Of a DNA stretch of 64,000 nt, positions 42,748 through 54,108 are shown piece after piece. The notes under the pieces are model-generated. The model searched no databases. It was not told where the DNA came from and saw only the letters and a list, made by a program, of their open reading frames with translations. Where the stretch lies: contig JABXHM010000003.1 in the NCBI GenBank assembly GCA_013373625.1, positions 124,001 to 188,000 of the forward strand. The letters are read 5' to 3'. Both the position numbers and the translations under genes were made by a program. Position 1 is the stretch's first letter. Each line of letters starts with the position of its first letter. Source of the stretch: Alteromonadaceae bacterium. GTDB taxonomy: Bacteria > Pseudomonadota > Gammaproteobacteria > Enterobacterales > Alteromonadaceae.

Positions 42748-43707
42748 ATGACCGAAAAACCAAGCTCTCAACCTGCATTTCCACTGAGTCAGGATCCCTT
42801 CGGAGTATTTATTGAGCAATTAAAGCCGCTGAACAGTTTATACTGTTTTTCTACGTTATCTGCTCCCTGGGGATTAGAACTACCCTCTATGCATAACAGA
42901 CTAATGATGCATATTGTCACTGGCGGGCGCTGCATTATTTTGCATGAAGGCAATAAGGTAATACTTGAAGAAGGGTCGCTGGTATTAGTTCCGCATGGGT
43001 ATGGACATTGTATAAAGTCCGCAGCCAATGCCAACGTCGTTCCTTTTTTTGATTCAGGCGTAAGGCAATTATCACCTAACCTTGAAGTACTGGATATTCC
43101 CGGACCTGGCGATACCACCCGATTGATATGTGGCGTGGTGTCTTTCGATCCGTTAATTGGTAATTACCTGCTCGAACAACTGCCACAGTTACTGTGTCTC
43201 CAACCCAGCGATTACCGGGAAGCAGCCTGGTTGACCTCTACTATCGACTTAATCAAGCGAGAAGCACAAAGCCTTGCTCCTGGCAGTGAAACCATTATTA
43301 CTCGTCTGGCAGAAATCATGATTATTCAGCTAATACGTCATTGGTTAGATCATTCGCCACTTGCTAAACAAGGTTGGTTTGCTGCGATGCGCGATACTCG
43401 TATTGGCAACGCGTTACGGGTAATTCATCAGCAGCCCGAGAAACGCTGGACAGTAGAAAGTCTGGCCAGTGTTGCTTGCATGTCACGCTCAGCTTTCGCC
43501 GCTAAATTTACAGAACTCGTGGGCAAAAGTGCTAAAAACTATCTTACTGAATGGCGACTTACACTCGCCCACTACCAACTTCGTAGCCGAAAAACCCCCT
43601 TAATTGAGCTGGCATTGGCTTGTGGGTATGAATCGGAAGCGGCCTTCTCCAGGGCATTTAAAAGAGTCATTGGTTACTCGCCAAGTAATGTTGAGAGTGG
43701 CGATTAA
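42748..43707 (+). CDS. AraC-family regulator with N-terminal cupin domain
   Basis: 319 residues. N-terminal cupin (about 30-190, with HNRLMMHIVTGGRCIILHEG and VLVPHGYGH) and a C-terminal double HTH (about 215-315: WTVESLASVACMSRSAFAAK; ELALACGYESEAAFSRAFKR). This cupin group often sits next to NmrA/SDR or DUF1772 genes and responds to small hydrophobic or redox compounds. It is divergent from the NmrA-like/DUF1772 operon, its likely target. Confidence 0.9.
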   Translation: MTEKPSSQPAFPLSQDPFGVFIEQLKPLNSLYCFSTLSAPWGLELPSMHNRLMMHIVTGGRCIILHEGNKVILEEGSLVLVPHGYGHCIKSAANANVVPFFDSGVRQLSPNLEVLDIPGPGDTTRLICGVVSFDPLIGNYLLEQLPQLLCLQPSDYREAAWLTSTIDLIKREAQSLAPGSETIITRLAEIMIIQLIRHWLDHSPLAKQGWFAAMRDTRIGNALRVIHQQPEKRWTVESLASVACMSRSAFAAKFTELVGKSAKNYLTEWRLTLAHYQLRSRKTPLIELALACGYESEAAFSRAFKRVIGYSPSNVESGD

Positions 43708-45078: not shown

Positions 45079-45918
45079 ATGAATAACTTAAATGGAATTC
45101 TCAATCAACACGCCTTTACCACAACCGTTGATCATAGCGGCTCATTTAGTGGCGTTCGTCATTTTAATAACAGTGGTCGCTTACATCTGCTTGAGTCCGG
45201 AACTGTCAAGATTGTTCAGAAGGGAGGTCACGAGATGCTACTCGATCGCCCTTCGATTGTCTTATTACCTACTGCTATACCTCATCGCCTGGAAGCAAAG
45301 GGAGACTCACCAGCAGCGCTAATTAGTGCCAGCGTGTCCTTTTGTTTGAACAATTCTTCAATGTTGCTTAAAGCGTTGCCTGACATGATGTATTTACAGG
45401 TAAAGCCAAGTTGTTCAATGTCCTGTACCGTTCAATGGCTGTTTAAAGAAGTATTTGAACAGCGCTTCGGTAAAGACATCATGATCAATAAGCTCGGTGA
45501 GATCTTTATGCTACAGATGCTCAGGCACGCAACCGAACAAGGCAGTTTGCATGAAGGTGCTCTTGCGGCCATAAACCACCCGCAAATGCGTAACGTTATC
45601 GACGCTATTCATAGCAATCCCGGACATCACTGGACACTTAACTGTCTGGCCAGTATTGCTGCGATGTCGCGCTCTAAGTTTGCTGAAAGTTTTAAAACCC
45701 TGGTGGGCCAGACTCCCAACGACTACATCACAGATCTCAGGCTGGCACAGGCTCAAAAGCTGCTGAAAAATGATAAGCCGGTTAGTTTTGTGGCCGGTGA
45801 AGTTGGCTATGAGCATGGTTCTGCTTTAGTACGCATTTTTAAGAAAAAACTCGGTGTTTCACCACGGCAATGGTTGCAACAGTCGAGAAAAAGCGGCGCA
45901 ACACTACTTAATGCTTAG
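45079..45918 (+). CDS. AraC-family regulator (tandem copy 1)
   Basis: 279 residues. N-terminal cupin (about 20-170, with RLHLLESGTVKIVQKGG and VLLPTAIPHRL) and C-terminal AraC HTH pair (WTLNCLASIAAMSRSKFAES; VAGEVGYEHGSALVRIFKKK). It is closely similar to the next gene and more distantly to the AraC gene at 42748. Preceded by operator-like repeat copy 3, so autoregulation is plausible. The following gene begins almost immediately. Confidence 0.9.
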   Translation: MNNLNGILNQHAFTTTVDHSGSFSGVRHFNNSGRLHLLESGTVKIVQKGGHEMLLDRPSIVLLPTAIPHRLEAKGDSPAALISASVSFCLNNSSMLLKALPDMMYLQVKPSCSMSCTVQWLFKEVFEQRFGKDIMINKLGEIFMLQMLRHATEQGSLHEGALAAINHPQMRNVIDAIHSNPGHHWTLNCLASIAAMSRSKFAESFKTLVGQTPNDYITDLRLAQAQKLLKNDKPVSFVAGEVGYEHGSALVRIFKKKLGVSPRQWLQQSRKSGATLLNA

Positions 45919-45945: not shown

Positions 45946-46812
45946 ATGGAAAATATAGCCGACATTATCCGGCGGATCTCACTCACTGCAGAAGTCTTCT
46001 TTAGCGGCAAGCTGTGTGGAATTCAGTCTTTTTCGTCAGAGCAAAAAGGCCATTTGCATCTGCTCAAATCAGGCTGTCTGACAGTACTGATGCGTAACGG
46101 AACGAAGCAAGTTATTGACAAACCGTCAGTCATATTTATTCCCGGTCCGTTGGAGCACCGTATTGTGGCGCAGGAATCTGCCGGGGCGGAAATGGTTTGT
46201 GCCACGATCAGCATGGAATCAGCCAATCAAAAGCTTCTGCTGGAAGCATTACCCCCTTTACTGGCGCTGCCACTGGATGCAGAAATTTACATTGGTCGTA
46301 CCGCAGAATGGTTGTTTGAAGAAGCCTTTAGCCGCTCGGTTACGCGGGGCGTAATGATCGATAAACTCAGTGAAATATTTCTGTTGCAGGTACTTCGTTA
46401 TGTACTCGAAAACGATTTAGCGAAAGGCGGCATACTGGCTGCGCTGACTCACCCAATGATGGCCAAAGTAATCAGTGCTATGCACAACAAACCAGAAGTA
46501 AACTGGACTGTTGACTCCCTCGCCGATCTTGCTGCCATGTCTCGTTCGCGCTTTGCTGCTACCTTTAAATCGGTCGTCGGCATCACACCGAATGATTACC
46601 TGACCGATATACGCATCGCAATTGCACAGGACATGCTTAAAGATAAGAAACCGGTGAATTTAGTTGCGAATATGGTGGGTTATGAACATGGCTCAGCGCT
46701 TGCGAGGCTGTTTCGTAAAAAGCTGGGCTTATCGCCCAAGCAATGGTTGAAGTTGCCTGAACAAGGTAATAATCAACCTCTGCGGACACCGTCCACGGAC
46801 ACAAACGAATAG
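45946..46812 (+). CDS. AraC-family regulator (tandem copy 2)
   Basis: 288 residues from the ATG preceded by AGGA at 6 bases; the ORF extends upstream to a TTG directly after the previous stop. Same architecture as copy 1: cupin (HLHLLKSGCLTVLMRNG; IFIPGPLEHRI) and AraC HTH pair (WTVDSLADLAAMSRSRFAAT; ANMVGYEHGSALARLFRKK). The shared MSRS-F and YEHGSAL blocks show recent duplication. The product may heteromerise or compete with copy 1 (inference). Confidence 0.9.
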   Translation: MENIADIIRRISLTAEVFFSGKLCGIQSFSSEQKGHLHLLKSGCLTVLMRNGTKQVIDKPSVIFIPGPLEHRIVAQESAGAEMVCATISMESANQKLLLEALPPLLALPLDAEIYIGRTAEWLFEEAFSRSVTRGVMIDKLSEIFLLQVLRYVLENDLAKGGILAALTHPMMAKVISAMHNKPEVNWTVDSLADLAAMSRSRFAATFKSVVGITPNDYLTDIRIAIAQDMLKDKKPVNLVANMVGYEHGSALARLFRKKLGLSPKQWLKLPEQGNNQPLRTPSTDTNE

Positions 46813-46825
46813 ATATAAAGTCAGG

Positions 46826-46860
46826 ACGATTGGTTTCTTCAAAAGAAGCGAATCGTTTTA
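46826..46860 (+). terminator. weak terminator-like hairpin after the tandem AraC genes
   Basis: Arms ACGATT (46826-46831) / AATCGT (46851-46856) and an inner CTTC/GAAG pair around AAAA, followed by TTTTA. The stem has internal mismatches. Confidence 0.4.
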
Positions 46861-46925
46861 CATTACCGACACTGGTTTTAACCAGTTCGACACCAGACTT
46901 TTTTGCTTAACCGAGGACTTACACC

Positions 46926-47399
46926 GTGAACGCATTAACACAACTCATTGCTAAACTCACTCACATTTCAGACAAGCTGTTTTCACCTTTACAATCGTTG
47001 CTAATACTGGCAGCACGAATTTATGTTGCCTGGGTATTTTTCGCATCAGGGCTGACTAAAATTGATGATTGGGAAACAACCCTGTTCTTATTTGAATATG
47101 AATATCATGTACCGCTACTGCCATTTGTACTTGCAGCGTATCTTGCTACGCTTGGAGAGCTGCTGTTACCCGTATTGTTAACACTGGGGATCACCAGTCG
47201 GCTTAGCGCACTGGGTCTCGCCATTGTTAATATTGTTGCGGTGATTAGCCTTGAAGATATCCCTGCAGCGGCACTTTATGGCCATGTCATTTGGGGACTT
47301 ATTTTACTTCACGTTACTGTCTGGGGCGCAGGTAAATTTTCGTTTGATCATTTCAGTACGCGTCGTCAGCAATCGAATACGCCGTTAGCGTCTGCCTGA
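46926..47399 (+). CDS. DoxX-family membrane protein
   Basis: 157 residues from GTG with GAGGA at 8 bases. DoxX fold with four hydrophobic helices; LLILAARIYVAWVFFASGLT, KIDDWETTLFLFEYEYHVPLLP and LATLGELLLPVLLTLG are typical. DoxX proteins are linked to quinone- or thiol-dependent redox and to MNIO/bufferin operons elsewhere. Here the gene is about 3.5 kb from the end of the bufferin operon and followed after 15 bases by an unknown gene. Confidence 0.9.
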   Translation: MNALTQLIAKLTHISDKLFSPLQSLLILAARIYVAWVFFASGLTKIDDWETTLFLFEYEYHVPLLPFVLAAYLATLGELLLPVLLTLGITSRLSALGLAIVNIVAVISLEDIPAAALYGHVIWGLILLHVTVWGAGKFSFDHFSTRRQQSNTPLASA

Positions 47400-47414
47400 T
47401 AGGTTTTACTCGCC

Positions 47415-48419
47415 ATGAAATGGGATATTCTTGACGGTGAGCAACCTTTGCAAAATGCGCCCGTTGTACGTTTAGACAACGGCGCAGTTTGCATCCCGCA
47501 ACACTATTTAACCTATGCACATACCCAACAAACGCTTGAGCAAATCATACTCGACTGCGACTTTGATGATGACTATTTAATTATGGCAGCTGAAAACACC
47601 CAGGGATTATATGTTCAAGTCGGCATCATTGGTTACGATACTTATAAACCGCGTACAGCGCAGACTGAAAAGAAAATTGTATATGGTCGGCGATGGCGAA
47701 TTGAACGGCATTTCCCCACGTCCGAATTAATCCAAACCATCTTTCTGGCGATTAAAAAAGCGCGGGAACATGAAGTTCGCGAGCGCTTTAAGTTATGTAT
47801 AAATAACCGTTGGAGTGCACCTTTCAGTACACATCAGGATCTTCCACTTATTGCTGCACAGGCAGCACAGTTGATTACCAATAAACAACGCGACAACATC
47901 GAAACCTTTAGTCAGGCCTGTGAGTTGCTCTTGCAAAGGATCAAATTCGATCATTGCAGTGTCATTATCATCAACATTGAGTACCGAACCACGGGACAAG
48001 TTTTAGTAGATTTAACACTGTCTACGTCACCGGCATCTGAATTACCTGAATGTCAGGACGCTTGTTTTACTCTGGTTCTGGCAGGCCCCGACACCAACGA
48101 GTTGTTATTTGCACTAATGGAAAAGCTCATTGAACGTAGTGACCGCTTCGTCGATGAAAACTTTTACTACCGCAAGGTAAACCGCTTTAGCCGAGATTTG
48201 TCAGTGCATAAAATAGCGCAGCTATCGCTGCAGACCCGGCAACCATTAACCGGAAAAAAAGCAGCCCAGTTTTATACCCAACTCAAACAACATAACGCGT
48301 GTATCGATGCAGCACGAGCACCAAAAATTGATACCCGAAAGCTGGCCAGACATTTACAGCAAAAACTGCCATCACCTGACTCGCTTGAGGGATTTCTCCC
48401 TATATTTACTGAACGCTAG
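47415..48419 (+). CDS. conserved-looking protein of unknown function
   Basis: 334 residues, soluble, no signal or TM helix. It begins MKWDILDGEQPLQNAPVVRL; the first third is beta-rich (GLYVQVGIIGYDTYKPRT, YGRRWRIERHFPTSELIQ) and the rest mixed helix/strand, with FYTQLKQHNACIDAARAP near the end. I recognise no catalytic motif or named family. Same strand as the DoxX gene, 15 bases downstream, so probably cotranscribed. Confidence 0.75.
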   Translation: MKWDILDGEQPLQNAPVVRLDNGAVCIPQHYLTYAHTQQTLEQIILDCDFDDDYLIMAAENTQGLYVQVGIIGYDTYKPRTAQTEKKIVYGRRWRIERHFPTSELIQTIFLAIKKAREHEVRERFKLCINNRWSAPFSTHQDLPLIAAQAAQLITNKQRDNIETFSQACELLLQRIKFDHCSVIIINIEYRTTGQVLVDLTLSTSPASELPECQDACFTLVLAGPDTNELLFALMEKLIERSDRFVDENFYYRKVNRFSRDLSVHKIAQLSLQTRQPLTGKKAAQFYTQLKQHNACIDAARAPKIDTRKLARHLQQKLPSPDSLEGFLPIFTER

Positions 48420-48570
48420 CTAAGGCTATTTACAGCGGGAAGCCGCAAAATCACCTTTGTGAAATATGGCAGGTTTAATTTCTGCATGATCTGCTTGCCG
48501 TGTAAATGTTTACGCGAGCCAACCGCACTCGCGGACAAACACTTCAGGCATGCATCTTTGGCTACTGGTT

Positions 48571-49167
48571 TTAGTGAGATACCTGATAATTCAGCGTTAG
48601 TAACTGTAATGCAATCTGCTTAGCTATCTGTGCAGCGCTGCTGTTACTGGTGGTATGCGCATTAACAATTGCACCATCAGCGAGCACCGCAAACTGCACT
48701 GCAAGCTCGTGAGGGTTTTCGAGTTTCAGAGGTGCCATTAACTCTTCTATATATTGAATTACCAAACGTTTATGCATAGCGCAAATCACATGTACCGGGT
48801 GATCCTGGCGAGGGTACTCTGCCGACGCATTAATAAACATACAGCCACTAAACTGGCTGGAAGTCGTCCACTCGTCGATGGCATCAAAGAAGGCTAATAC
48901 CCCGGCAAATTCTGCAGCGCCCTGTTGACGACCAGCAAATTTTCTAACCCCGGCTTTGAGCATTGCCATAAACTCCTCATCGCGACGCTGCAGCGTTGCA
49001 ATGATAAGTTCATCTTTTGATTTAAAGTGGTTGTACAGCGTGCGTTTAGCTACACCGGCCTGTTCAAGCACAGTATCGATTCCCGTGCCTTTTATACCTT
49101 CGCGGTAAAATAACTGCTGCGCAGTTTCTACCAGGTGTTCACGTTTACTTTTTCGCTTCGCTGTCAT
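48571..49167 (-). CDS. TetR-family transcriptional regulator
   Basis: 198 residues. N-terminal HTH (REHLVETAQQLFYREGIKGT; VLEQAGVAKRTLYNHFKSKDEL) and a ligand-binding C-terminal domain of the type seen near alkene/aldehyde reductase regulators (SGCMFINASAEYPRQDHPV). It is followed in the opposite direction by the DoxX/unknown pair and preceded by the NrtS-like gene; its target is unclear. Confidence 0.9.
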   Translation of the reverse strand: MTAKRKSKREHLVETAQQLFYREGIKGTGIDTVLEQAGVAKRTLYNHFKSKDELIIATLQRRDEEFMAMLKAGVRKFAGRQQGAAEFAGVLAFFDAIDEWTTSSQFSGCMFINASAEYPRQDHPVHVICAMHKRLVIQYIEELMAPLKLENPHELAVQFAVLADGAIVNAHTTSNSSAAQIAKQIALQLLTLNYQVSH

Positions 49168-49227
49168 TCAACCTCCAATAAGTACACAGACCAGTATACA
49201 ATAAACTCAATATTTTAAAAGGCATCA

Positions 49228-49473
49228 TTATACAGAGGGAATTATCGACGGCGCTGTGAGGCGACCGTACAGAAATACCATAAAAGGAACACTATAACTG
49301 AGTAAAGCTTTAACGACTTGTAACGGCTGCTCAGCGTATATAACAGCTTCAAATTGATTGATAGTGGTCAATACCGTCCCCACCACTAAAGCAGTTTTGA
49401 GTGCACTAAACAGTACGTTCGGCGATACGCGCTCACGCCAGCGATGACGTAGCACTGAAATGGTATGTTGCAT
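49228..49473 (-). CDS. nrtS: NrtS-like small membrane protein (nitrate/nitrite transporter family)
   Basis: 81 residues with two hydrophobic helices: ALKTALVVGTVLTTINQFEA and KALLSYSVPFMVFLYGRL. This matches the two-helix NrtS pattern known from cyanobacteria and proteobacteria as a small nitrate/nitrite transporter. GGAG precedes the ATG. It lies 11 bases after the TlpA-like thioredoxin gene on the same strand. No nitrate or nitrite reductase genes are in the window, so the transport role is uncertain. Confidence 0.6.
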   Translation of the reverse strand: MQHTISVLRHRWRERVSPNVLFSALKTALVVGTVLTTINQFEAVIYAEQPLQVVKALLSYSVPFMVFLYGRLTAPSIIPSV

Positions 49474-49484
49474 GATCGACTCCG

Positions 49485-49988
49485 TTACAATGATAATGCA
49501 CGCTCGAGGCCATCAGGATAGCGGTGTCCCCGGTAGAGGATCCCGCCATCTGCAGAAACAATGACAAAAACAGGTGTGCCAAACACGCCGTATGAAGCAC
49601 TCACATTGCTGTCGTGATCAAACATTACCGGAAATGTAATAGCGTAATCCTGTATGTACTTCTTAGTCAGCGCGACAGAATCATTAATACCAACATTAAT
49701 CGCCAGCACATCAATCAATTCACCATAGTCATTATGCAGCGCAACAACACGCGGCGTCGCTTTTTTACAATACGGACACCAGGTCGCCCAAAAATATAAT
49801 AAGGTTGGCTTATCCTGATTAAAACCGGGCATATCAAACTGCTCCCCGGTGAGACTACTGAACGTAAAGGACGGCGCCGATGGCGGCGGCTCAGCTGCGA
49901 TTTGCGCGTAAGCAAGTCCACTTAACAGGACGATGACTGTTGCAACCAATAACGTGCGTAGATGGTTTAAGCCGTATCGAATTTTCAT
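49485..49988 (-). CDS. TlpA/ResA-like periplasmic thioredoxin
   Basis: 167 residues. Signal peptide or anchor LLVATVIVLLSGLAYA (about 13-28), then a redoxin domain with active site FWATWCPYCKKATP (Cys-Pro-Tyr-Cys) and the cis-proline loop GVFGTPVFVIV. Likely a membrane-associated or periplasmic thiol-disulfide reductase. In a pair with the NrtS-like gene. Confidence 0.88.
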   Translation of the reverse strand: MKIRYGLNHLRTLLVATVIVLLSGLAYAQIAAEPPPSAPSFTFSSLTGEQFDMPGFNQDKPTLLYFWATWCPYCKKATPRVVALHNDYGELIDVLAINVGINDSVALTKKYIQDYAITFPVMFDHDSNVSASYGVFGTPVFVIVSADGGILYRGHRYPDGLERALSL

Positions 49989-50092
49989 AATTTACTCTCT
50001 TACTAAAGTTTTTAGCTGGTTTACTCACATCAGATTAATGCCATGTTCATTTATAAAGGCCACTGAAGCGCGTTAATTTGAAACTCAAAGGA

Positions 50093-50644
50093 TTACCAGC
50101 GCATAGCAAAAGAAAAACTCACAAAATCGAGTCCTGGATTGGGCTTTTTAATACCACCGTTTGAATAGTGAAAATATCGCAAAGCAAGTCGATACTGCTC
50201 TTCGCCACCAAACTGATAGCCTATACCCAGGCGATCCTCAAATTGATAGTGAGTGCTTACATCTTTACCCGCAAAGCGCGTATCATCAAGTAACGATAGG
50301 CCAATACCAAATTCACCAAATAGCCGACCGGTCCCGCAATAGCAAAACGTTTTCTGTAATACCGGTGACACTGCCAGAATAAAATTGGTATCGTGCTGAC
50401 GTGGCGTGCCGTATTCCCAAAAGTTAATACTGGTTTCTAAATAAATACGCAGATCTTCCACATACTCATCAAGGGATAGTTGGTAGAATTGATAAGCCAG
50501 CTTTATACCTTCCACATCGCCCTCACCGCGGATGTAATCAACCGATACAGTGTTTGCCTTTACCGGTAAACTGACCATTGTAAGGTTCACAATTAATGCC
50601 ACCGACATCAACAACGGCCGGTAGATGCTATGCCAATATTTCAC
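50093..50644 (-). CDS. pagL: acyloxyacyl hydrolase / lipid A 3-O-deacylase (PagL-like)
   Basis: 183 residues. Signal peptide to about 31 (LPVKAN), then a beta-barrel of PagL size ending in FSFAMRW. The active-site His-Ser is found as RYFHYSNGG (His159, Ser161). The PagL acid, Glu140 of the Pseudomonas enzyme, is 12 residues after Ser; here that position is Asp173 (PNPGLDF), a conservative change. It should trim the 3-position acyl chain of lipid A in the outer membrane. Cys101/Cys103 (CYC) are unusual for an outer-membrane barrel. Confidence 0.8.
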   Translation of the reverse strand: MKYWHSIYRPLLMSVALIVNLTMVSLPVKANTVSVDYIRGEGDVEGIKLAYQFYQLSLDEYVEDLRIYLETSINFWEYGTPRQHDTNFILAVSPVLQKTFCYCGTGRLFGEFGIGLSLLDDTRFAGKDVSTHYQFEDRLGIGYQFGGEEQYRLALRYFHYSNGGIKKPNPGLDFVSFSFAMRW

Positions 50645-50802
50645 TTTACGTTCCTCTAAAAATAGCCAAATAACAGGACGTAAAGTGTATTAATCAGGAA
50701 CAAATAAAATTGCCCGTATGTACTGAATTATTATCCTATCAACACGTTTGGGGGGGATTTCATTACACAGAAAAGTCTACTTTGATCAGGAAGCCGACAG
50801 GC

Positions 50803-50831
50803 AAAAAAAAGCGGTGCTGAAAAGGCACCGC
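50803..50831 (-). terminator. intrinsic terminator of the bufferin operon
   Basis: Stem GCGGTGC / GCACCGC; on the minus strand it is followed by eight T. It lies 28 bases past the stop of the DUF2063 gene. Confidence 0.88.
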
Positions 50832-50858
50832 AAAAGGAGTAACACACAGACAAAAAAT

Positions 50859-51611
50859 TTATTCTAAGTGGGTTATCCAGTCGCGCTGAATGGCGCTGGC
50901 AATCCAGGCTGCAAAGTCAAAAGCAGGAAATATGTCTAACAGTGCAGCCACACTCAGGCCGTCTGAAATACCACGCAGCCAATTAAATTCATCTTCGTAA
51001 ACTTCTACTATGTTGGTGTTATGAGCGCCTTGAGCGATCACATAACATCCTGTTTCCTGATGATTCATAACGTTCTCCAGTTGTTGTCTTGATGGCACTT
51101 CTTGCTCAGTTTGCGAGCGATGAAGTCGCCATAACCCATGCACAGGATAACTACTGCGTAAATATTTGAGTGAAGGTTGCAGGGTAATGAAAGTTTGTTC
51201 CAGAGCCTCATCGGCTAAGCGTTGCAAAGACGCACTATTTAACGCATGAAACTGGCTACGGGACGCCAGGTGAAACACCCATTCAAACTGCGCAATATCC
51301 ACCAGATACGGGTGCTCCGCATTCAATTCACTGTTTCTTATTAAGGCCGGTAATTGCTGCCCCCAATCTGCCCAATCGCCACTCTCTGGCAGCTCCGCAC
51401 GAAGTAAGCGATGTGACAATACGAACATCGCTTGCTCACCGACCATTTGTGCTAGTACCGGGTAGGTTACCGTCAGGCTAAGCATTGCAGTCATGTGCAA
51501 GTTATTCTGATACACCTGTAGCCCTTTATCGCCGAGTGTCGAATCAACATGATAAATTTCATTCAGGAACTGCGACTGGTAATCCATTACGCTTATGTTA
51601 CCTCCACTCAT
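50859..51611 (-). CDS. bufC: DUF2063 partner protein of the bufferin system (BufC/HvfC)
   Basis: 250 residues from the ATG overlapping the bufB stop as ATGA; the longer ORF starts 11 codons upstream, while a later ATG eight codons in has GGAGG 13 bases ahead. The N-terminal helical DUF2063 domain has YQSQFLNEIY and YQNNLHMTAMLSLTVTYPVLAQMVGE, followed by a helical C-terminal region. In characterised systems this protein binds the DUF692 enzyme and presents the precursor peptide. Last gene before the terminator. Confidence 0.9.
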   Translation of the reverse strand: MSGGNISVMDYQSQFLNEIYHVDSTLGDKGLQVYQNNLHMTAMLSLTVTYPVLAQMVGEQAMFVLSHRLLRAELPESGDWADWGQQLPALIRNSELNAEHPYLVDIAQFEWVFHLASRSQFHALNSASLQRLADEALEQTFITLQPSLKYLRSSYPVHGLWRLHRSQTEQEVPSRQQLENVMNHQETGCYVIAQGAHNTNIVEVYEDEFNWLRGISDGLSVAALLDIFPAFDFAAWIASAIQRDWITHLE

Positions 51612-52501
51612 GCCATCAACTCCGTAGTCATCGCCTGGCGACAACGAGCTTTGTTGGCTTCGTATAGCAACCTTGGCCAGGACGGTAAATCGTTATCCCA
51701 TTCAATTAAGGTTGCAGCATTAGGGAAACGCGCCGTGGCGTCATCGAATAACTGCCAGCATTCATCTGATACCGGCTGGGCATGATCGTCAATAATTAAC
51801 ATACCTGGTTCAACCGGTGTGCTGCCCGCCAGATGGATTTCTTTTACGGCGTTAACCGGCATATGACGCAACCATTGACGAGCCAGTTGCAGTGCATTTC
51901 CATTGGTAAAATTGTGATAGTTGACCAACACATTATTGAGATCAACAAGTAATCCACACTGGGTTTTCTCAGCCACCGTCGCGAGAAATTCAGCCTCACT
52001 ATAATCACTGGGTGAAAACTGTTTGTAACTGACTATGTTTTCAATTAACAGCTGACGACCCAACGCCTGTTGCACACGGTCGATATTATCGGCAAGTACA
52101 TTCATCGTTGCGTGATTAAATTTCAATGGTAATAAATCGCCGGCATGGACCGGCATATCGTCAATATTACCCCAGGTAAAACAGGCGTGATCTGAAACCA
52201 GCACCGGATTTACCCGATTAACCAAACGCGTAAATTTTTTGAGATACTCTGGTTGAATACCTTTTGCAGAACCCAGTCCCATGGCTGTGCCATGTATGCT
52301 CACCTTATATCGCTCAGCGATTTGATCGAGTAACCGGCTAGCAGCACCACCTTCTGCAAAGAAGTTTTCCGCGTGTATTTCAACAAAATCGACAGAGTGC
52401 GATGACGGCAAAAGCGCCGCCGAATAGTGCTCGTGACGTAGACCAACCCCCACCGGAGTGGCATGGATCTGAGCCTGTTTTAAGGGGTGTATTGCAGTCA
52501 T
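51608..52501 (-). CDS. bufB: DUF692 multinuclear iron oxidase (MNIO), bufferin-modifying enzyme
   Basis: 297 residues, TIM-barrel DUF692/MNIO. Conserved metal-ligand stretches: VGVGLRHEHYSA, FVEIHAENFF, LVSDHACF, LIENIVSY, LLVDLNNVLVNYHNF, EIHLAGS, IIDDHAQP and TLIEWDND. MNIOs use mixed-valent iron centres to oxidise cysteines of a partner peptide, giving thiooxazole-type or related residues. It is 29 bases after the DUF2282 precursor gene and overlaps bufC by 4 bases. All expected ligands appear present. Confidence 0.95.
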   Translation of the reverse strand: MTAIHPLKQAQIHATPVGVGLRHEHYSAALLPSSHSVDFVEIHAENFFAEGGAASRLLDQIAERYKVSIHGTAMGLGSAKGIQPEYLKKFTRLVNRVNPVLVSDHACFTWGNIDDMPVHAGDLLPLKFNHATMNVLADNIDRVQQALGRQLLIENIVSYKQFSPSDYSEAEFLATVAEKTQCGLLVDLNNVLVNYHNFTNGNALQLARQWLRHMPVNAVKEIHLAGSTPVEPGMLIIDDHAQPVSDECWQLFDDATARFPNAATLIEWDNDLPSWPRLLYEANKARCRQAMTTELMA

Positions 52502-52530
52502 CGCTATGCTCCATCGAGTCTATTTACTGA

Positions 52531-52818
52531 TTAACCTTTCTGCTTTTTCTCTTCGTAACGTTTTTTAGCTTCTGCTTTGAGCATGCCACCCATACTCTCA
52601 CAGCTGCCTTTCGCCACGAGCTTCCATTCGCCTGGATCCTTATCCATAGTCGACTGACCTGCACAAGAGTGCGTACCAGCCAGGTTACCGCAGTCATTCT
52701 GACCAGCGGCTGCAATGCCGTAGCATTTTTCTTTTCCAGCCGCCTCTGCCGGCGCCGAAACAACGGTTGTGAGCGCCATTGCCAGTGCCGCAGCAGCTAT
52801 TGCGTGTTTATGGTTCAT
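52531..52818 (-). CDS. bufA: DUF2282 bufferin precursor peptide (BufA-like RiPP)
   Basis: 95 residues. Sec signal peptide at about 1-27 (AAAALAMALTTVVSAPAEAA), then a four-cysteine core: Cys32 (KCYGIAAAGQNDC), Cys43, Cys52 (THSCAGQST) and Cys73 (KGSCESMGG), the DUF2282 signature. The tail is Lys/Glu-rich. GAGG precedes ATG. In known systems the cysteines are oxidised by the DUF692 enzyme, the product is exported through its signal peptide and buffers copper in the periplasm. Directly followed by the enzyme and partner genes. Confidence 0.93.
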   Translation of the reverse strand: MNHKHAIAAAALAMALTTVVSAPAEAAGKEKCYGIAAAGQNDCGNLAGTHSCAGQSTMDKDPGEWKLVAKGSCESMGGMLKAEAKKRYEEKKQKG

Positions 52819-52831
52819 CGTCTTTACCTCG

Positions 52832-53158
52832 TTATGCTACTAAGTTTATATTTGCTTCAATCCACTGAGTAAGCTCAGCGTAACTTCCTGCCCCAACCTT
52901 AGTGTCGAGACGCTGGTTATGATCGAGCAGAATCAGAGTCGGTACCGCTCGCACACCTAAACGGTGAGCCAGCTCGAAGTCTTCATCTGCATCGACCTTC
53001 ACAATTCGCACAGTGCCAGCATACGCCTGCTCGATCATATTGATCACCGGCGCAACCTGCTTACAGGGACCACACCATTCAGCGCTGAACCACAGCATGA
53101 CAATGGGCTCAGGATACTGATGACCATTATTGGAGATTCCCTGAGTGCCTGATTCCAT
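52832..53158 (-). CDS. thioredoxin-family protein in the bufferin operon
   Basis: 108 residues, no signal peptide. Thioredoxin fold with active site LWFSAEWCGPCKQVAP (WCGPC), VKVDADEDFELAHRLGVRAV and cis-Pro in AVPTLILLD. Located 13 bases upstream of the precursor gene and 5 bases downstream of the YHS gene, all one strand. A cytoplasmic thioredoxin here could keep precursor cysteines reduced before modification (inference). Confidence 0.92.
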   Translation of the reverse strand: MESGTQGISNNGHQYPEPIVMLWFSAEWCGPCKQVAPVINMIEQAYAGTVRIVKVDADEDFELAHRLGVRAVPTLILLDHNQRLDTKVGAGSYAELTQWIEANINLVA

Positions 53159-53163
53159 CGCGA

Positions 53164-53640
53164 TTACTCCTCGGCGTTGGTTTCAGCAACCGTCAAGGCT
53201 TCAATGCCATCCCATACGCGATAAGCAGTTTTCAAATTAGCCGGAACATCTTCTAACCATTTTTGCTGTACCGCTTTGTTCAGGTTCAGGTACAGTTTGT
53301 TGTCTTCGATGTAAAAGGCCGCCGGGTCAACATCAAGCTTTTTGTTTAAGGCAACGCCCATTGCACAATAACCACCAAACTGAGGTGCATACTTGTCGGC
53401 ATTGGCTTTAAACATGTCGCGGTTTTTTGCGCTGGAGAAACGATAAATAGCACCGTCATGTGTGGCGGTGTACATTGCCGAGCCTTCAACTGGCTTTTGC
53501 TTTACGAAGTAAGCCACCGGGTCGTAACCATGGATAGCCACATCGTTGTCGCCAAGATTCACCGCAGACGCAAAAGACAGACTGCTAAATAAGATAGAAC
53601 CGGCCAGACCAGCAATAGTGAATAAACGAGAGATTTTCAT
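53164..53640 (-). CDS. secreted YHS-domain protein, first gene of the bufferin operon
   Basis: 158 residues from the ATG with AAAGGAAAA upstream; a longer in-frame ORF starts 20 codons earlier without such a site. Signal peptide KISRLFTIAGLAGSILFSSLSFASA, then a YHS-type domain with VAIHGYDPVAYFVKQKPVEG, YRFSSAKNRDMFKANADKYA and FGGYCAMGVA, containing the single Cys. YHS domains are small and often metal-associated. Position at the head of a copper-linked operon suggests periplasmic metal handling (inference). Confidence 0.9.
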   Translation of the reverse strand: MKISRLFTIAGLAGSILFSSLSFASAVNLGDNDVAIHGYDPVAYFVKQKPVEGSAMYTATHDGAIYRFSSAKNRDMFKANADKYAPQFGGYCAMGVALNKKLDVDPAAFYIEDNKLYLNLNKAVQQKWLEDVPANLKTAYRVWDGIEALTVAETNAEE

Positions 53641-53899
53641 AATATTTTCCTTTAATGGATTAATGTAAACAGAGTTTGTGGGAGAGCACATGGTGCTCAT
53701 GCATTCCCTGACATATAAGGTATGAAAGATTGGTTAACGGAAGGAAACAGAAGCACCATAAAACGGCGCTATTCGTCCAAACAAGCCTGAATGAGCGAGC
53801 CGGATGGCTTAAACGCTGTGTTAATAGTGAGTCCGGGGTATTCTGATCCTTATAGCCCCTGCCACCGTTTACTCAGTAAACCCACTGCGGCAATCAAAT

Positions 53900-54070
53900 A
53901 TGTTTGGATTATTTAACAAAGACCCCAGCGCAAAACTGCGTAAGCAACACGCGGCGTTGCAGGAAAAAGCCATGCTCGCCCAGCGCAAAGGTGATATTAA
54001 GACTTACTCTATGCTGACCGCAGAGGCGGAAACACTTTGGGCAAAAATTGAAGCGGCAAAAAAGCAGTAA
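53900..54070 (+). CDS. DUF6435-type small protein
   Basis: 56 residues: starts MFGLFNKDPSAKLRKQH, continues with LQEKAMLAQRKGDIKTYSML and ends in a helical AEAETLWAKIEAAKKQ. The MFGLF-x-KDP opening and A-x-x-AQR-x-GDI block match a widespread short gammaproteobacterial family (DUF6435). Predicted as a soluble helical hairpin; role unknown. It diverges from the bufferin operon and converges on the dipeptidase gene. Confidence 0.8.
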   Translation: MFGLFNKDPSAKLRKQHAALQEKAMLAQRKGDIKTYSMLTAEAETLWAKIEAAKKQ

Positions 54071-54084
54071 TGCAGATACAAAAA

Positions 54085-54108
54085 GGGCACACTTTTTACA
54101 GTGTGCCC
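54085..54108. terminator. terminator between DUF6435 and dipeptidase genes
   Basis: Eight-pair stem GGGCACAC / GTGTGCCC. On the minus strand it is followed by TTTTT, so it best serves the TonB-receptor/dipeptidase operon; the plus side has a weaker T tail. Confidence 0.8.

Follow-up and report, generated by a model that had tools for sequence, protein, structure and literature searches.

A Buf1-type operon with YHS and thioredoxin genes

Within a 64,000-nucleotide stretch of an Alteromonadaceae bacterium genome (GenBank assembly GCA_013373625.1, contig JABXHM010000003.1, positions 124,001 to 188,000; hereafter the window, whose numbering we use), we analyzed a minus-strand operon of five genes that joins a bufferin-type gene set to genes for a YHS-family protein and a thioredoxin. 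From the 5'-end, these genes encode the YHS protein (53640-53164), the thioredoxin (Trx; 53158-52832, after a gap of 5 bases), the DUF2282 (Buf1) precursor BufA (52818-52531, after 13 bases), the DUF692/MNIO enzyme BufB (52501-51608, after 29 bases) and the DUF2063 partner protein BufC (ATG at 51611 to 50859), which overlaps BufB by 4 bases. An intrinsic terminator on the same strand lies 3' of BufC at 50831-50811, with a hairpin of 7 pairs (6 of them G-C) followed by eight T, and ranks first of the 15 terminator-like sites in 46700-54100 (shuffled sequences gave a mean of 8.2). The order, spacing and strong terminator described in the original prediction all agree with the open reading frames of the window and this ranking, and domain searches confirmed the families. 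The same gene order is seen again in other families of the window's taxonomic order, which is more than chance would give. No sharp island edge in GC content was detected across 38000-60000, and PADLOC returned no match for the three proteins submitted.

As the prediction had read it, the gene set is of the bufferin type; its domain matches place it with Buf1, probably as a clade-specific variant: BufA (PF10048, 86.6 bits against a cut-off of 22.4), BufB (PF05114, 279.8 against 25; the family DUF692, which we take to be the same as UPF0276) and BufC (PF09836, 41.2 against 27.2) all exceed their Pfam cut-offs. The four cysteines of BufA (C32, C43, C52 and C73) are invariant in 20/20 aligned rows, and its N terminus is hydrophobic, with a 12-residue Kyte-Doolittle maximum of 2.2 within the first 40 residues, a measure of hydrophobicity only. 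Against finer models, BufA falls below the cut-off of the BufA2 family (NF050166, 29.7 of 60 bits) and BufB slightly below that of NF050167 (290.4 of 310 bits).

Buf1 bufferins are described as chelating copper via thiooxazoles, the modification falling on the two central cysteines while the outer pair forms a disulfide, and additional conserved genes are said to occur in clusters of this type in extremely low proportions (PMC12452194, as far as its accessible text goes). The Caulobacter vibrioides Buf1 clusters described there likewise contain a four-cysteine DUF2282 precursor, an MNIO, a DUF2063 protein and a nearby DoxX gene, whereas the window operon has YHS and Trx genes, and an RclR-like regulator takes the place of the sigma factor and NrsF genes reported for the known clusters (PMC12452194). 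The main text of that paper mentions neither thioredoxin nor YHS, AraC or RclR; thioredoxin, YHS and AraC are likewise unmentioned in PMC12668002, the accessible part of which refers to co-occurring transcriptional regulators in its supplement, and thioredoxin and YHS in PMC12538549. A YHS-domain or RclR term was not found together with DUF2282 in the literature searched, subscription papers being outside its scope; DUF2282 and thioredoxin occur together in two Caulobacter papers.

YHS and Trx recur within one clade of bufferin operons

We surveyed DUF2282 neighborhoods across 148 genomes from the window's order, finding 61 places in 57 genomes that amount to 60 operons, because two places in one genome (G076) share a single operon; all 60 were inspected, with differing amounts of flanking DNA. 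YHS lies upstream of BufA in 15 of the 60, and Trx stands between YHS and BufA in 8 of these 15. The same genomes contain 89 YHS genes above cut-off, 15 of which adjoin DUF2282, and three other surveyed genomes of the window's own genus yielded no DUF2282 match. A search with the YHS alignment gave at least 591 relatives, of which the best 80 form a second set of loci (L073-L152); two members of this set are duplicates of survey loci (L081 of L057, L084 of L064), and since the set was chosen by YHS similarity, rates drawn from it are not unbiased. BufA adjoins YHS in 18 of these best 80 of at least 591, including loci from Marisediminitalea, Alteromonas, Cellvibrionaceae, Colwellia, Cognaticolwellia, Psychromonas, Moritella, Motiliproteus, Marinobacter, Glaciecola and others, with two of the 18 repeating survey loci.

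Across both sets, Trx is present in 20 of 33 loci that carry YHS and BufA. It follows doxX in two Marinobacter loci (L089 and L090), and doxX precedes YHS in another locus (L085). Among the YHS-less operons, Trx was found in none of 45 within the DNA fetched, nor in any of the 26 seen with 7.6-10.3 kb, which were also used for the regulator count below; the other 19, with about 3 kb each, were excluded from that count.

In a tree of 73 BufB proteins, a single 29-row clade (support 99/98) contains 28 of the 29 YHS operons represented, the exceptions being L051, inside the clade without YHS, and the YHS operon L063, outside it. Similarly, 30 of 31 bufferin-linked YHS proteins fall within one 35-row group of the YHS tree, at a modest support of 89/83; the remaining members of that group are four proteins accompanied by an AraC gene only and one with neither bufferin nor AraC. 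The original prediction of a YHS-Trx pair in front of the core system is thus borne out in part: the survey found the co-occurrence on which it hinged, and both genes are recurrent parts of one bufferin clade, but they do not form a fixed pair, YHS being constant and Trx present in 8 of 15.

Several related arrangements were seen along the way. Tandem BufA genes lie inside one YHS-Trx operon in L064 and L083, and one genome (G134) has two YHS-BufA operons, of which L065 contains YHS, Trx, BufA and DoxX with no match for BufB or BufC, and L060 contains YHS, BufA, BufB, BufC and DoxX with no match for Trx; the two precursors in this genome may share one enzyme set. The window's own genome also carries a second MNIO locus (L001, 1160-3081 of contig C20), with a precursor of repeated EGKCG motifs, an MNIO and a downstream open reading frame of 252 amino acids, so the genome may additionally make an oxazolin-type peptide.

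An RclR-like regulator and doxX accompany the YHS operons

In most loci with YHS and BufA, an AraC gene stands divergent from YHS (the single one scanned combines Cupin_6 with a helix-turn-helix domain) and doxX is the last gene of the operon. In the window, the corresponding genes sit 3.5–5 kb past the end of the operon, on the plus strand: an AraC regulator at 45946..46812, 48% identical to the regulator of L033 (E 1.1e-81) and likely the cognate one, and a DoxX-family, HvfX-like membrane protein at 46926..47399 (NF050144, 55.5 bits against a cut-off of 80), detached from the operon. The coordinates of the original prediction excluded 45946-47399, and the regulator, doxX and the putative shared operator were missed. 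A split arrangement like that of the window occurs in M. aggregata (L073), and Alteromonas KUL42 (L074) has a distant AraC gene at the end of the locus, with no DoxX seen.

Of the NCBIfam models, RclR (NF040475) scores best for the L033 regulator and for three AraC genes of the window, each time far below its cut-off, so we name the regulator RclR-like only. The other two window genes are a paralogue on the plus strand at 45079..45918, which lacks both conserved cysteines, and a gene at 42748-43707, which lacks one of them; both cysteines are present only in 45946-46812. Across the AraC proteins, excluding rows with X, of 200 amino acids or fewer, or with an E of 1e-25 or weaker, cysteine is conserved at position 24 in 31 of 33 rows and at position 86 in 32 of 33. 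Numbered as in these regulators themselves, the two may correspond to the redox cysteines Cys21 and Cys89 of E. coli RclR.

At E<1e-20, 28 of the 33 YHS+BufA loci contained an RclR-like gene, as did 14 of the 15 YHS operons found in the survey. The scan covered 20 kb in the window; in the remaining loci it reached about 5 kb to each side of BufA, or 6 kb of YHS. At that narrower reach the window regulator would be missed, and the survey count is 13/15 if the window is held to 5 kb. At the same threshold, none of the 26 YHS-less bufferin loci had such a gene, one of them (L039) showing a weak AraC match (E 7.5e-7). In five other YHS loci, four had no RclR-like gene and one had a weak match of 28%. 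DoxX is present in 19 of the 26 YHS-less bufferin loci and is therefore generic.

Downstream of the operon, at 49228-50644, lie genes for a PagL lipid A deacylase, for an exported thioredoxin-fold protein resembling ResA/TlpA, and for an NrtS-like protein; the position of the PagL and ResA-like genes is kept in L073 and L074.

A putative operator shared by the YHS and doxX promoters

The intergenic regions between AraC and YHS in many relatives share a motif, TTTGGACGATTGGGTTCA, upstream of YHS, often with a similar element about 21-22 bases beyond it, both read by eye. Scanning the window with a matrix built from 18 sites, picked by eye in 15 other loci, gave the two best scores at putative operator half-sites in the two promoters of interest: TCAGGACGATTGGTTTCT upstream of doxX (46821..46838, plus strand; 16.5) and TTTGGACGAATAGCGCCG upstream of YHS (53764..53781, minus strand; 14.5). 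This joint placement is out of the ordinary: none of 2000 column-permuted matrices placed both top scores in the YHS and doxX promoters, and 15 of 2000 placed at least one there. An exact match to TTTGGACGAWTNGNNYC is found a single time in the 5.09-Mb genome, at the YHS promoter; allowing two mismatches makes the pattern unspecific, with 56 matches against 152 for a reversed control.

Of 20 YHS+BufA loci outside the matrix (the window included), 11 had a top score above 13 in front of YHS or doxX; several of the 11 are close kin of matrix loci. The same outcome was seen in 0/26 YHS-less bufferin loci, in 0/5 outside-matrix loci having YHS and AraC without BufA, and in 1/55 other YHS loci. An operator-like site (15.2) lies 117 bases upstream of YHS at 5884-5901 of L086, a locus with neither bufA nor an RclR-like gene, and a terminator-like hairpin on the minus strand of the window (53752-53770) coincides in part with the putative YHS operator.

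Trx appears cytoplasmic and YHS appears exported

The Trx protein carries the WCGPC motif and matches PF00085 at 79.8 bits (cut-off 23.5), falling below the thioredoxin equivalog cut-off (TIGR01068, 85.2 of 96.8 bits). No N-terminal export signal was seen, its N terminus being less hydrophobic than those of YHS and BufA, with a 12-residue Kyte-Doolittle maximum of 1.25 within the first 40 residues (2.0 for YHS). Trx probably keeps cytoplasmic thiols reduced, whether those of BufA, BufB or the regulator; as the prediction more specifically suggested, it may hold the precursor thiols reduced. With Trx apparently cytoplasmic and YHS predicted to be exported from its hydrophobic N terminus, direct action of Trx on YHS is unlikely. 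A further thioredoxin match, with 39% identity and one TAG inside the match, occurs elsewhere in the same genome (G000:C79:41511-41771).

Metal-type YHS domains generally carry more cysteines than the single invariant one, C92, of the window protein, which belongs to the YHS (seleno)protein family (NF041384, 147.1 bits against a cut-off of 70) and falls below the Pfam YHS cut-off (PF04945, 24.6 of 30.3 bits). C92 is invariant in 15/15 aligned rows, and the cysteine recurs in 80/80 rows of the second set (the best 80 of at least 591), a count in which one search pattern of the two already included it; no selenocysteine variants were found in this same, biased, set. One invariant cysteine and a fit to NF041384 rather than Pfam YHS point to thiol redox chemistry, and the earlier proposal that YHS handles metal outside the cell finds little support in them. 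A fold modeled from 15 sequences was unusable, with a predicted local distance difference test (pLDDT) score of 47.8. A model from 82 sequences reached 90.1, and it had no PDB fold match at E <= 0.001, the best (4.0e-3) being a ciliary protein structure; the only significant matches of profile searches were ciliary proteins that carry YHS-like repeats, so that structure pointed to no function for YHS. YHS proteins appear in published selenoprotein tables (PMC2398784, PMC9312934), and the accessible text of those two papers states no function for the family.

A proposed copper-plus-oxidant model and its alternatives

Three known systems frame the interpretation. Oxidation of Cys21 and Cys89 activates E. 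coli RclR, whose targets include rclA, encoding a Cu(II) reductase (PMC7464077). An AraC regulator with two cysteines, like ours, here governs a regulon joining hypochlorous acid (HOCl) and copper (PMC7464077, PMC7527725); in the P. aeruginosa RclR-RclX system, RclR controls a redox gene (PMC7950407). In H. influenzae, HOCl induces an operon for DoxX, a small periplasmic protein, UPF0276 and DUF2063, parts shared with the present set; that operon differs in being under the sigma factor RpoE2, and YHS and Trx are not named in it in the accessible text (PMC7907618). Taken together, RclR, the H. influenzae HOCl operon and copper chelation by Buf1 favor a copper-plus-oxidant response over other readings, and we put at roughly 0.5 the probability that the operon is a variant of the Buf1 bufferins, controlled by a thiol-switch regulator and serving defense against copper and oxidants.

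In such a model, HOCl or another thiol oxidant, perhaps with copper, would oxidize the two conserved cysteines of the regulator, which would then activate both the YHS and the doxX promoters. BufB and BufC would turn the two central cysteines of BufA into thiooxazoles in the cytoplasm, and the modified peptide would be exported by Sec and bind copper in the periplasm. Trx could keep a cytoplasmic partner reduced, be it the thiols of BufA, the iron site of BufB or the disulfide of the regulator, in the last case serving as an off-switch. Exported YHS might act as a periplasmic thiol-redox factor through its single invariant cysteine, with DoxX as a membrane redox partner. A stronger version, in which the RclR-type switch induces the bufferin together with its own Trx, as MNIO electron donor or for switch reset, and a periplasmic YHS that protects or regenerates the thiooxazole peptide, all as one self-contained module, is speculative, and we consider it unlikely as a whole.

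Several observations weigh against the copper-plus-oxidant reading. The RclR match of the regulator at 45946-46812 is far below cut-off (105.7 of 400 bits), and its putative target genes differ from those of RclR in E. coli and P. aeruginosa; an RclR-like gene was not found, in the DNA fetched, in 5 of 33 YHS+BufA loci (L063, L076, L080, L097 and L104). Taken by themselves, the operator scores are ordinary: in dinucleotide shuffles of the window, the top score came up in 10 of 100 and the second in 9 of 100. Of the 20 loci outside the matrix, 9 have no top match upstream of YHS or doxX, and many motif-bearing loci are closely related. Trx is absent from 7 of the 15 survey YHS operons and hence optional, and YHS occurs with an RclR-like gene and no nearby bufA in 7 loci, which means that YHS is not tied to bufferin production.

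The strongest competitor, which we regard as doubtful yet deserving of real weight, is a plain copper-buffering operon whose regulator senses copper or another metal, with YHS and Trx as general helpers and no oxidant sensing. Caulobacter Buf1 chelates copper and helps growth under copper excess (PMC12452194), and heavy metal often induces such clusters (PMC12668002), both according to the accessible text of these sources; the sub-threshold RclR score fits this account as well. However, RclR is still the top-scoring model, the cysteines at 24 and 86 are conserved, and the presence of YHS and Trx points to thiol redox. We consider it improbable that the locus is instead a co-regulated stress neighborhood, in which YHS and Trx share the bufABC promoter and regulator but contribute nothing to the production or use of the peptide: the 7 loci without bufA and the optional, shifting Trx would suit this, but the genes are tightly packed in the window (gaps of 5, 13 and 29), Trx was found in 0/45 YHS-less operons within the DNA fetched, and the linkage to a single BufB clade is long-term. 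Adjacency by chance, with no functional link, is very improbable, since even if much of the recurrence inside one BufB clade may reflect few independent events, the parts remain together despite rearrangement (L089, L090 and L085; the split loci of the window and L073).

The copper-plus-oxidant reading would set a bufferin branch apart by its regulator and accessory genes, and on this reading the branch should respond to oxidants as well as to copper. According to the accessible text of PMC12668002, ascorbate raises MNIO turnover, and whether an external reductant is needed is unclear; Trx would be a candidate reductant for MNIO enzymes, and the YHS (seleno)protein family would gain a genetic setting.

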